Source: Alphaproteobacteria bacterium | GTDB taxonomy: Bacteria; Pseudomonadota; Alphaproteobacteria; Sphingomonadales; Sphingomonadaceae | Length of the DNA: 64,000 nucleotides | Assembly: GCA_018970445.1 (NCBI GenBank) | Contig: JAGWWF010000002.1 | Span: 124,001 to 188,000, forward strand | Reading direction: 5' to 3' | Shown here: piece after piece, positions 4,674 through 43,619 of the stretch | Numbering within the stretch: position 1 is the stretch's first letter | How the letters are laid out: each line of letters starts with the position of its first letter | Notes under the pieces: generated by a model | Database searches by the model: none | What the model was told of the DNA's origin: nothing | Seen by the model: the letters and a program-made list of their open reading frames with translations, nothing else | Made by a program: the position numbers and the translations under genes

Positions 4674-6065
4674 ATGCTGAAACCTTACTGGCGGCTTGGC
4701 AAGCGCGCTGATGCAGCCCAAAAGGGCCAGGTGCAACCGCCCAATCCCTCTGCCGGCCTGAAGGCCGCCTCCCTGCCGCGGGGGCAGTTTGCCGTGCTGT
4801 TCGCCGCCATGCTCACGGTGGCGGCCGGCAACACCGCGTTGCAGACGGTGCTGCCGGCCATCGCCCGCGTGATTCACCTGCCCGACATGCTGGTGGCGGT
4901 CATCTTCTCCTTCTCGGCCCTGTTGTGGACGTTCAGTGCGCCCTATTGGGCCCGCCAGTCCGACATCAGGGGGCGGCGGCGGCTGATGCTGGTGGGCACG
5001 CTGGGCTTCATGGTGTCGATGACCGGCTGCGGCGTCGCCATCTATGCCGGCCTCAACGGCTGGCTGGTGCCGATTGCCACCTTTGCGGTGTTTGCCACGC
5101 TGCGCAGCCTGTTCGGCATCTTCGGTTCGGCATCCAACCCGGCGGCGCAGGCCTATGTCGCGGCGCGCACCAGCGAGGCTGATCGCACCGCCGCCCTGTC
5201 CAGCCTGGCCTCTGCCTTTGGCCTGGGCACCATCATCGGGCCGGCGGTGGCGCCGCTGTTCATCCTGGCCCCGTTCGGCCTGTCGGGGCCGATGTTCGCC
5301 TTTGCCCTGATCGCCGCCATCGTCACCATTGCCGTGGCCCGCGTGCTGCCCGATGATGATCCCACCCACCATCGCGCCAATGGTGGCAGCGGCGCGCCCT
5401 CTTCGGAACCCAGCGTGGCCGGCAGCACCACCGGCGCCAGCATCAGCGCCGCTGCCGCCGGCCGGCCACAGCGGCTCAGCTTCCGGGATGGCCGCATCCT
5501 GCCGTTCATGATCTTCGGCTTTGCCTCCGGATCGATCCAGGCCGCCACCGGCCAGGCGCTGGGCTTTCTGGTGATCGACACGCTGGGGGGCAGCGCGCTC
5601 GATTCGCAGCAGGAAATCGCGGTCATCTTCATGGCCGGGGCCTTTGCCACGCTGCTGGCGCAATGGGGGCTGATCCCGCAGCTGCGGCTCACCCCGCCGG
5701 CGCTGATGCGCTGGGGCACGCTGATCGCCGCGCTTGGCACCGCCGGCATTGCGCTGGCGCATGATCTGCACACGCTGGTGATCGCCTTTGCGCTGATGAG
5801 CCTGGGCTATGGCCTGGCCCGCCCCGGCTTCACCGCCGGTGCCAGCCTGGCCGTCTCGCGCGCCGAACAGGGCGGCGTGGCCGGCGCGGTCACCTCGGTC
5901 AACGGCAGCTGCTTCGTCTTTGCGCCGGCGGTGGGTATCGGCCTGTATCAGCTTGGCCCCACCCTGCCCTATTGGCTGGGGGCGGCGGCGCTGGTGGCGC
6001 TGGCCGTCTATGCCTTTGCCAAACCCGAACTGGGCCGCGAACCCGGCGAACGGCTGGAGGATTGA
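4674..6065 (+). CDS. MFS transporter (TetA-like/sugar efflux type)
   Basis: Hydrophobic multi-TM protein with ARQSDIRGRRRLMLVG MFS loop motif; exact start uncertain (GTG at 4731 possible). Confidence 0.82.
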   Translation: MLKPYWRLGKRADAAQKGQVQPPNPSAGLKAASLPRGQFAVLFAAMLTVAAGNTALQTVLPAIARVIHLPDMLVAVIFSFSALLWTFSAPYWARQSDIRGRRRLMLVGTLGFMVSMTGCGVAIYAGLNGWLVPIATFAVFATLRSLFGIFGSASNPAAQAYVAARTSEADRTAALSSLASAFGLGTIIGPAVAPLFILAPFGLSGPMFAFALIAAIVTIAVARVLPDDDPTHHRANGGSGAPSSEPSVAGSTTGASISAAAAGRPQRLSFRDGRILPFMIFGFASGSIQAATGQALGFLVIDTLGGSALDSQQEIAVIFMAGAFATLLAQWGLIPQLRLTPPALMRWGTLIAALGTAGIALAHDLHTLVIAFALMSLGYGLARPGFTAGASLAVSRAEQGGVAGAVTSVNGSCFVFAPAVGIGLYQLGPTLPYWLGAAALVALAVYAFAKPELGREPGERLED

Positions 6066-14993: not shown

Positions 14994-15009
14994 TGTTTCA
15001 CGTGAAACA
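14994..15009. promoter_or_regulatory. parS centromere-like site 1 (TGTTTCACGTGAAACA)
   Basis: Exact palindromic 16-bp parS consensus in mnmE-mnmG intergenic region. Confidence 0.95.
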
Positions 15010-16886: not shown

Positions 16887-17518
16887 ATGGGCGAAGACGC
16901 GCGCAGCGCCTTTGCGGCCGAGTTTGATGTTTCACGTGAAACATTGGCCCGGCTTGACCGCTATGCCGAACTGCTGGCCGAATGGCAGCAACGCATGAAC
17001 CTCGTGGCGCCGTCCACCCTGCCGCACATCTGGGATCGCCATTTTCGCGACTCGGCCCAGCTGCTGGCCATAGCCGGCCCAGGCCAACGCTGGCTCGATA
17101 TCGGCGCCGGCGGCGGCTTTCCGGGCCTGGTGCTGGCCATTCTCGATCCCACCGCCCGCTTCACGCTGGTCGAATCCATCGCCAAGAAATGCCGCTTCCT
17201 CGCCGAGGTCGCCGGCGAAACCGGCACGATTGACCGGGTCACCATCGCCAATCAGCGCGTCGAGACGCTGCGTCCTATCCCCTTCGACATCATCACCGCC
17301 CGCGCTGCGGCCGCACTGGAGGTGCTGTTCGACTGGAGCCTGCGCCTTGGCCGGCCCGGCACCCGCTGGATCCTGCCCAAGGGCCGCAATGTGCAGGAAG
17401 AGCTTGCCACGGCGGCCAAGCGATTCCACTTTGATCACCAGCTGATTCCCAGCCGCACCGATTCTGATGCCCGCATCGTGCTGGTCACACATCTCAGGTC
17501 TGTCGAGGTCAAACGCCG

Positions 17519-41382: not shown

Positions 41383-42423
41383 TTACAACGGCTTTCGCAG
41401 CAGGTCGAACAGCCGTTCGACATGGGCGATCGGCGTGTCCTGCAGGATGCCGTGGCCCAAGTTGAACACATGCGGACGACCCGACAGTGCATGACGGATG
41501 CGGGTGACGGCCTGTTCCAGCGCTTCGCCGCCGGTGATCAGCGCCAGCGGATCAAGATTGCCCTGCACCGGCATGCCCGGCGGCAGCATGGCATCGCCCC
41601 AGGCCGGATCGACCGTTTCATCGAGGCCCACCGCATCCACGCCTGTTTCCGCCGCATAAGCGGCCAGCTTGGCGCCGGCACCCTTGGGGAAACCGATGAT
41701 CGGCACATCGGGATGGCGCACCATCAGGCGGCCAACAATATCGGCATTGGGGGCAATCACCCAGCGTTCGAACTGGGCTGGCGACAACGTGCCGGCCCAG
41801 CTGTCAAACAGCTGGATGGCCTGGGCGCCCGCCTCGATCTGGCCCGACAGATAGTCAACCGTGACGGCCACGATCTTGTCGATCAGTGCCTGGAACCGGC
41901 CGGAGTCCTTATAGGCCAGATGGCGGGTTTCGGCCTGGTCCTTGCTACCATGACCGGCCACCATGTAGGTGGCAATCGTCCAGGGGCTGCCGGCAAAGCC
42001 CAGCATCGTCACCTTGGGATCGATGGCCTTGCGCACCTTGGCGACCGTCTCATAGATCTTGGCGAAGTGGAGCGGATTGGGCGCCAACATCGAAAAATCG
42101 CCATCGTGCAGCGGCGGGGTCAACTGTGGGCCTTCACCCGGGCCGAAGCTGAGCCCCTGGCCCATGGCATGCGGCACGATCAATATGTCGGAAAACAGGA
42201 TCGCCCCGTCCATGCCGAACCGGCGCAGCGGCTGGATGGTGATCTCGGCGGCGGCATCGCTGTCATAGACCAGTTCCAGAAACCCACCCTTTTCGGCGCG
42301 CAGGGCGCGATATTCGGGCAGATAGCGGCCAGCCTGCCGCATCAGCCAGACCGGCGGCGGGTCACGGCGCTCCCCCTTCAGAACGGCGAGTAGCGGCGGG
42401 TCAATGTGGGTCTCTTCGGCCAT
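41383..42423 (-). CDS. hemE: Uroporphyrinogen decarboxylase
   Basis: PPVWLMRQAGRYLPEYRALRAEKGGFLELVYDSDAAAEITIQPLRRFGMDGAILFSDIL; start at 42423 (MAEETHIDPP). Confidence 0.97.
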   Translation of the reverse strand: MAEETHIDPPLLAVLKGERRDPPPVWLMRQAGRYLPEYRALRAEKGGFLELVYDSDAAAEITIQPLRRFGMDGAILFSDILIVPHAMGQGLSFGPGEGPQLTPPLHDGDFSMLAPNPLHFAKIYETVAKVRKAIDPKVTMLGFAGSPWTIATYMVAGHGSKDQAETRHLAYKDSGRFQALIDKIVAVTVDYLSGQIEAGAQAIQLFDSWAGTLSPAQFERWVIAPNADIVGRLMVRHPDVPIIGFPKGAGAKLAAYAAETGVDAVGLDETVDPAWGDAMLPPGMPVQGNLDPLALITGGEALEQAVTRIRHALSGRPHVFNLGHGILQDTPIAHVERLFDLLRKPL

Positions 42424-42617
42424 GATGTCCCTTGGCGGCAAGCCATATCGCCGGTCAAGAGCAGAGCCACACAGCCATAAACGAAAAGACATGAAAGAAG
42501 GTTGTGACTGGTAGTGGCGCGGTGAATCCTGGGGATCAAAGCTGGTGCGCACATCCATCCACAGCCAGATGCGGCAGGATCTTGCCGGATTCCGGCGAGT
42601 CGCTGCCCTTGTCCCCG

Positions 42618-42626
42618 TTATCCACA
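42618..42626 (+). promoter_or_regulatory. DnaA box TTATCCACA
   Basis: Exact consensus match. Confidence 0.85.
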
Positions 42627-42641
42627 GGCCTGCCTGTGGAT
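42620..42641. repeat. Perfect inverted repeat ATCCACAGGC-CT-GCCTGTGGAT embedding a DnaA box
   Basis: 10-bp arms with 2-nt spacer read directly. Confidence 0.9.
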
Positions 42642-42742
42642 TCTTCCGCCTGATGATGCTTCTGATCGCGCTCGGTGGCCGGAAGATGTGAAAAGCCGCT
42701 TGCTCCGATGTCCACACCGGCACTAACGCTTTGCCCTGATGC

Positions 42743-42751
42743 TTATCCACA
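42743..42751 (+). promoter_or_regulatory. DnaA box TTATCCACA
   Basis: Exact consensus match. Confidence 0.85.
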
Positions 42752-42794
42752 GAGTCATCCGCCGCGAAATTGCCATCGAGCCGGGCTGCTGAGC

Positions 42795-43619
42795 GTGCCG
42801 GACTCGCTGCATCTGCATCTGATCAGTGATTCCACCGGCGAAACGCTGGAATCGGTCGCCAAGGCCAGTCTGGCGCGATTCGAAGGCGCAGAGGCGGTGA
42901 AGCATTTCTGGCCGATGGTGCGCAGCGAGGGCCATCTCGATCGCATCATCACCGAAGTGGCGAAAAAACCTGGTCTGGTGATCTACACGCTCGTCGATGG
43001 GGCGGTGCGCGATCGGCTGGAGCAGCGCTGTGCCACGCTGGGCCTGCCGATGGTCTCCCCACTGGATCCAACCATTTCGGCCCTGTCCGAACTGCTGGGG
43101 CAGGCCGCCACCCGCCGGCCCGGCCGCCAGCATGTGATGGACGAAGCCTATTTCCGCCGCGTCGATGCCATCAACTACACGATGGTGCATGACGATGGCG
43201 CCCAGGCCTCCGCCGAGGATCTGCAGGAGGCCGACATCGTGCTGCTCGGTGTCTCGCGCACCTCCAAGACGCCGACCTCAATCTATCTGGCCAATCGCGG
43301 TTACAAGACGGCCAACATCCCGCTGGTTCCGCAATCACCGCCGCCACCCCATGTCTGGCAGGTCCAGGGCCCGTTGCTGGTCGGGCTGACCACCGCCACC
43401 GAACGGCTGGTCCAGATCCGTCGCAACCGCCTGCTGTCGCTGGGCCAGACCCCTGATACCGATTATGTCGATGCCGAACGCATCGATGCCGAAGTGGCCT
43501 TTGCCCGCCGGCTGTTTGCCGATCACGACATAGCGGTGATCGATGTTTCGCGCCGCAGCATCGAGGAGACCGCGGCTGCCATCATCAACCTGCACCAGGC
43601 CAGGGTCGACAGGGCCTGA
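42795..43619 (+). CDS. ppsR: Pyruvate, water dikinase regulatory protein (DUF299 kinase/pyrophosphorylase)
   Basis: SLHLHLISDSTGETLESVAKASLARF; LLGVSRTSKTPTSIYLANRGYKTANIPLVP; GTG start proposed. Confidence 0.93.
   Translation: MPDSLHLHLISDSTGETLESVAKASLARFEGAEAVKHFWPMVRSEGHLDRIITEVAKKPGLVIYTLVDGAVRDRLEQRCATLGLPMVSPLDPTISALSELLGQAATRRPGRQHVMDEAYFRRVDAINYTMVHDDGAQASAEDLQEADIVLLGVSRTSKTPTSIYLANRGYKTANIPLVPQSPPPPHVWQVQGPLLVGLTTATERLVQIRRNRLLSLGQTPDTDYVDAERIDAEVAFARRLFADHDIAVIDVSRRSIEETAAAIINLHQARVDRA

Follow-up and report, generated by a model that had tools for sequence, protein, structure and literature searches.

The hemE-ppsR spacer

The window, a continuous stretch of 64,000 nucleotides, belongs to the draft genome (3.03 Mb, 45 contigs) of a sphingomonad of the genus Sandarakinorhabdus or one very near to it. 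A 371-bp spacer (42424-42794), considered here as a candidate origin of chromosome replication (oriC), separates the divergent genes hemE and ppsR. The left boundary is formed by hemE on the minus strand (41383-42423), which encodes uroporphyrinogen decarboxylase and scores above the cut-off of TIGR01464. The right boundary is formed by ppsR (COG1806/DUF299) on the plus strand (42795-43619), which has a GTG start at 42795. The gene order is hrpB, hemJ, hemE on the minus strand to the left of the spacer and ppsR, maf, aroE, coaE, dnaQ on the plus strand to the right, confirming every gene named in an earlier, sequence-only reading of this DNA as well as their divergent orientation. The AT content of the spacer is 41.8%, compared to 32.5% for the window. 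No family was matched in an Rfam search of the spacer.

The spacer contains two exact DnaA boxes with the sequence TTATCCACA, both on the plus strand and 125 bp apart. Box 1 (42618-42626) is situated within the conserved string TCCCCGTTATCCACAGG, and box 2 (42743-42751) is followed immediately by GAGTC (42752). There are three weaker, box-like sites. The first, CCATCCACA (42555-42563, plus strand), has a CCACA core that is near-invariant in 21 aligned sequences. The second, GAATCCACA (42635-42643, minus strand), is inverted so that it faces box 1 and is overlapped by a GANTC site at 42639-42643. The third, ATGTCCACA (42708-42716, plus strand), is conserved in close relatives, not beyond. The sequence-only reading had placed two exact and three near-consensus boxes at these same positions. 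A coding N-terminal extension of ppsR across box 2, using the open frame from 42666, was considered and rejected. The corresponding frame of locus L003 opens just 72 bases 5' of the conserved LHLISD start, and box 2 therefore lies outside the ppsR frame.

The exact sequence TTATCCACA occurs five times in the 3.03 Mb genome: twice in the spacer and three times as single copies on other contigs. The spacer has five TCCACA sites (13.5/kb, compared to 0.47/kb in the window), more than any other 371 bp of the window. In 5000 dinucleotide shuffles of the spacer the mean number of TCCACA sites was 0.19 and none of the shuffles reached five; the number of exact boxes was likewise unreached in all 5000. 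One-mismatch boxes number 186 genome-wide, fewer than the 209 found with a reversed-pattern control. Single near-boxes thus carry no weight alone, and the case for an origin rests on the exact pair and its conservation.

The least stable duplex of the spacer is an A-rich tract situated beside hemE (42476-42516), which is a candidate unwinding element. The tract falls within the weakest 0.04% of the 40-bp duplex stretches of the window, showing that the A-rich tract noted earlier is real. In relatives its place is kept and its sequence is not.

Two perfect parS 16-mers (14994-15009 and 16928-16943, plus strand) have mnmE, mnmG, rsmG, parA and parB as neighbors, in agreement with the earlier estimate that parS lies about 26-28 kb from the spacer. 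Both are in coding or near-coding DNA, one at the start of mnmG and the other within the open frame of rsmG.

Conservation and strand asymmetry in relatives

The genes hemE and ppsR remain divergent neighbors in Sandarakinorhabdus, Polymorphobacter and unnamed close relatives within the Sphingomonadales. Within the genus, a BLAST search matched the spacer in 22 of 24 genomes. Nearly all hemE-ppsR spacers of the nearest relatives have one exact box or more. Upon counting pairs in which both boxes match TTWTNCMCA, a pair with a spacing of 124-125 bp was found in 13 of 32 spacers, extending from Sandarakinorhabdus out to Sphingomonas (including Sphingomonas chungangi). Most of the other close-relative spacers, which do not have the pair, retain one exact box. 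The near-invariant blocks of the alignment are the CCACA core at 42555, GCGAGTC at 42597 and, at boxes 1 and 2, TCCCCGTTATCCACAG and TTATCC, respectively. The hemE-ppsR spacers of five loci from Croceibacterium, Erythrobacter, Novosphingobium and their relatives (L039, L041, L052, L055 and L059) have no exact DnaA box. Since several related clades, such as Novosphingobium and Croceibacterium, lack an exact box in the homologous spacer, an exact box is not by itself what defines the site.

The GC skew was sampled in twenty 20-kb stretches from each of three closed genomes within the family. The largest contrast was obtained with the break at ppsR, amounting to 0.063 in G005, 0.021 in G051 and 0.042 in G045, with permutation p values of 0.00025, 0.0045 and 0.00005, respectively. 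The strand-biased GGGNAGGG octamers also switch strand at ppsR in the closed relatives; in G045 there are 6 on the plus and 41 on the minus strand to the left, and 31 on the plus and 8 on the minus strand to the right. The distance from dnaA to the skew break is 1.2, 0.43 and 0.94 Mb in the three closed genomes. The hemE-ppsR spacer of G051 (locus L088) has no box matching TTWTHCACA, yet the skew break is still there.

In the close relative G151, which is represented by a 0.97-Mb contig, the mean skew is -0.030 to the left of the spacer and +0.012 to the right. The near-closed genome G152, of the same genus, has a noisy skew. Its contrast at the spacer falls short of significance (p 0.17) and its best break is 0.28 Mb away. 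Breaks placed at the spacer, at dnaA and at an element of the type found on contig C20 (described below) give contrasts of 0.026, 0.023 and -0.013. As the first two values are so close, G152 alone cannot separate dnaA from the spacer. From about -954 kb to -313 kb nearly every octamer of G152 is of the minus type, and beyond +347 kb the plus type predominates. The pattern is consistent with an origin close to the spacer, though imprecise.

The sequence-only reading had proposed GC skew as a check. This was borne out in the three closed relatives, where the break is at hemE-ppsR and far from dnaA. The skew of the contig that carries the window (C22) is too noisy to decide. Over some 46 kb to the left of the spacer it has negative values, to the right it is only near zero, and the cumulative minimum is about 19 kb off. 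In this genome too few GGGNAGGG octamers lie near the candidate origin to be informative. The dnaA gene is on a separate contig, C36, which has none of the five exact boxes.

GANTC, CtrA and IHF sites

The spacer contains five GANTC sites, compared to a mean of 1.7 in shuffled sequences (p 0.018). The 371 bp that begin at 42524 and extend into ppsR contain nine, which is the densest such stretch in the 196 kb of C22 examined. The median GANTC density of the 32 homologous spacers is 14.8/kb, compared to 1.5/kb in flanking DNA, and is higher in 32 of 32 (Wilcoxon p 2e-10), although these loci are related and do not represent 32 independent tests, and the enrichment may partly be a general intergenic property because the comparison was made with neighboring, mostly coding DNA. 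An imperfect palindrome (42579-42603) contains two GANTC sites, at 42588 and at 42597; its form in relatives is GACTCGCCGGAATCnGGCGAGTC, with up to three such sites. All 21 aligned sequences have a GANTC at 42597. Two further sites touch DnaA boxes, one overlapping the inverted weak box (42639) and the other abutting box 2 (42752). Among the proteins of the genome is a CcrM-like methylase that has a RAMA domain; it aligns across the full NCBIfam CcrM model with a score below the strict Caulobacter cut-off.

The spacer has no CtrA site by either the strict (TTAA-N7-TTAA) or the loose (TTWW-N7-TTWW) pattern. Across the 32 spacers the strict pattern was found in none and the loose pattern in two. 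The IHF consensus WATCAN5WTR is absent from the spacer and occurs once in each of 4 of the 32. The absence of IHF sites is not decisive, because it concerns matches to a consensus alone and predicted hemE origins differ in their IHF sites.

A probable origin and the alternatives

The spacer shows the features of a hemE-type oriC: a position by hemE and COG1806 (ppsR), several DnaA boxes sharing a single intergenic region, unmatched elsewhere in the genome, and a tract of raised AT content and low stability. The Caulobacter crescentus origin, Cori, lies between the same two genes (PMC1914354) and likewise has several DnaA boxes, an AT-rich stretch and GANTC sites. Unlike the present spacer, in which neither CtrA nor IHF sites are found by consensus, Cori combines its five DnaA sites with five CtrA sites and a single IHF site (PMC1914354). 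The Rickettsia and Wolbachia origins share the hemE boundary gene and DnaA boxes, but belong to AT-rich genomes and have IHF sites, often together with CtrA sites; the second boundary gene is a different one in Wolbachia (PMC1914354). The oriC predicted for Sphingopyxis granuli TFA with Ori-Finder/DoriC is also beside hemE and resembles the spacer in its conserved order of genes, in having several DnaA boxes and in a putative unwinding element. It belongs to a different genus, and the spacing of the box pair and the GANTC cluster are quantified here and not in the passages of PMC4741004 consulted. According to that paper, oriC is near hemE in most Sphingomonadaceae in DoriC, in a conserved region (PMC4741004). 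Since an origin at hemE has thus already been predicted for most of the family, the present one is not new and is an ordinary, though well supported, find.

The spacer is therefore very probably (about 0.93) the DnaA-dependent oriC of the main chromosome in a Sandarakinorhabdus-type sphingomonad and the positional equivalent of Cori, as the box cluster, the order-wide conservation of boxes and spacing, the hemE/ppsR context, the nearby parS-parAB and the skew break in three relatives all agree. This supports the origin proposed in the sequence-only reading.

The spacer might instead be merely a region of divergent promoters, with DnaA regulating hemE, ppsR or both, while replication starts elsewhere. 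Any spacer between divergent genes must contain both promoters, and the alignment shows TTGC and TAAC strings, conserved between the boxes, that could be the promoter of ppsR; a further conserved noncoding element of the genome also has an exact box. However, the Caulobacter origin occupies the same spacer (PMC1914354). The five-site cluster and the conserved 124-125-bp spacing exceed promoter control, and the polarity of skew and octamers flips at the spacer in three closed relatives, making this explanation improbable.

Many bacteria initiate at dnaA. An origin at dnaA, or at the second conserved element that has an exact DnaA box (C20:39179) and is shared by 22 of 24 genomes in the genus, is less probable still, because the dnaA contig carries no exact box, the distance between dnaA and the skew break is 0.4-1.2 Mb in closed relatives and a break at the C20-type element of G152 gives a negative contrast. 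That the boxes and the AT tract are chance features of a spacer is already refuted by the conservation of the boxes across genera. Near-consensus boxes alone are at the genome-wide chance level, but 0 of 5000 shuffles reached the observed exact boxes or TCCACA cores.

If the spacer is the oriC, DnaA would bind the strong boxes at 42618 and 42743, and these would probably seed its cooperative binding to the weaker sites (42555, 42635 and 42708). Opening of the A-rich tract by hemE (42476-42516) would follow, and after loading of the helicase the forks would depart bidirectionally. The likely origin of the draft genome is thereby fixed and its contigs can be oriented. A box pair 124-125 bp apart, an A-rich tract by hemE and a GANTC palindrome between them provide a minimal layout for finding oriC in sphingomonad drafts.

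The GANTC cluster would presumably be methylated by CcrM, which might have some effect on the origin. Because GANTC is about ten times denser in the spacer, at 42524-42756, than in the DNA around it and overlaps or abuts DnaA boxes, it might be speculated that the origin in sphingomonads, without direct CtrA control, is timed instead by CcrM methylation. A hemimethylated new origin might then bind DnaA differently, like the GATC/SeqA system of E. coli. This is rather doubtful. Several GANTC sites are known in Caulobacter origins, where loss of CcrM left the control of initiation undisturbed (PMC3973325), and a literature search for GANTC clusters at sphingomonad origins found nothing specific. 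A GANTC cluster without CtrA sites nevertheless provides a testable case for the timing of initiation in these bacteria.

The noncoding element on contig C20 of the same genome, outside the window, spans C20:39150-39329 (about 5150-5330 of locus L100), has its exact DnaA box within a 9-base repeat array and also carries GANTC sites. The repeats proceed in 9-base steps and share TCCCCGTTATCCACAGG with the candidate origin. The core is TCCATCCCCGTTATCCCCGTTATCCACAGG in most relatives, and the present genome has GTTTTCCCC in the middle unit. The repeats are followed by TTTGACGACTCAC and about 100 more conserved bases. Small indels make it unlikely that the element codes for protein. It had no match in Rfam, and its folding is only mildly better than that of shuffled sequences. 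It is possibly the promoter of a DnaA-regulated small RNA, or a site of DnaA titration or reactivation.
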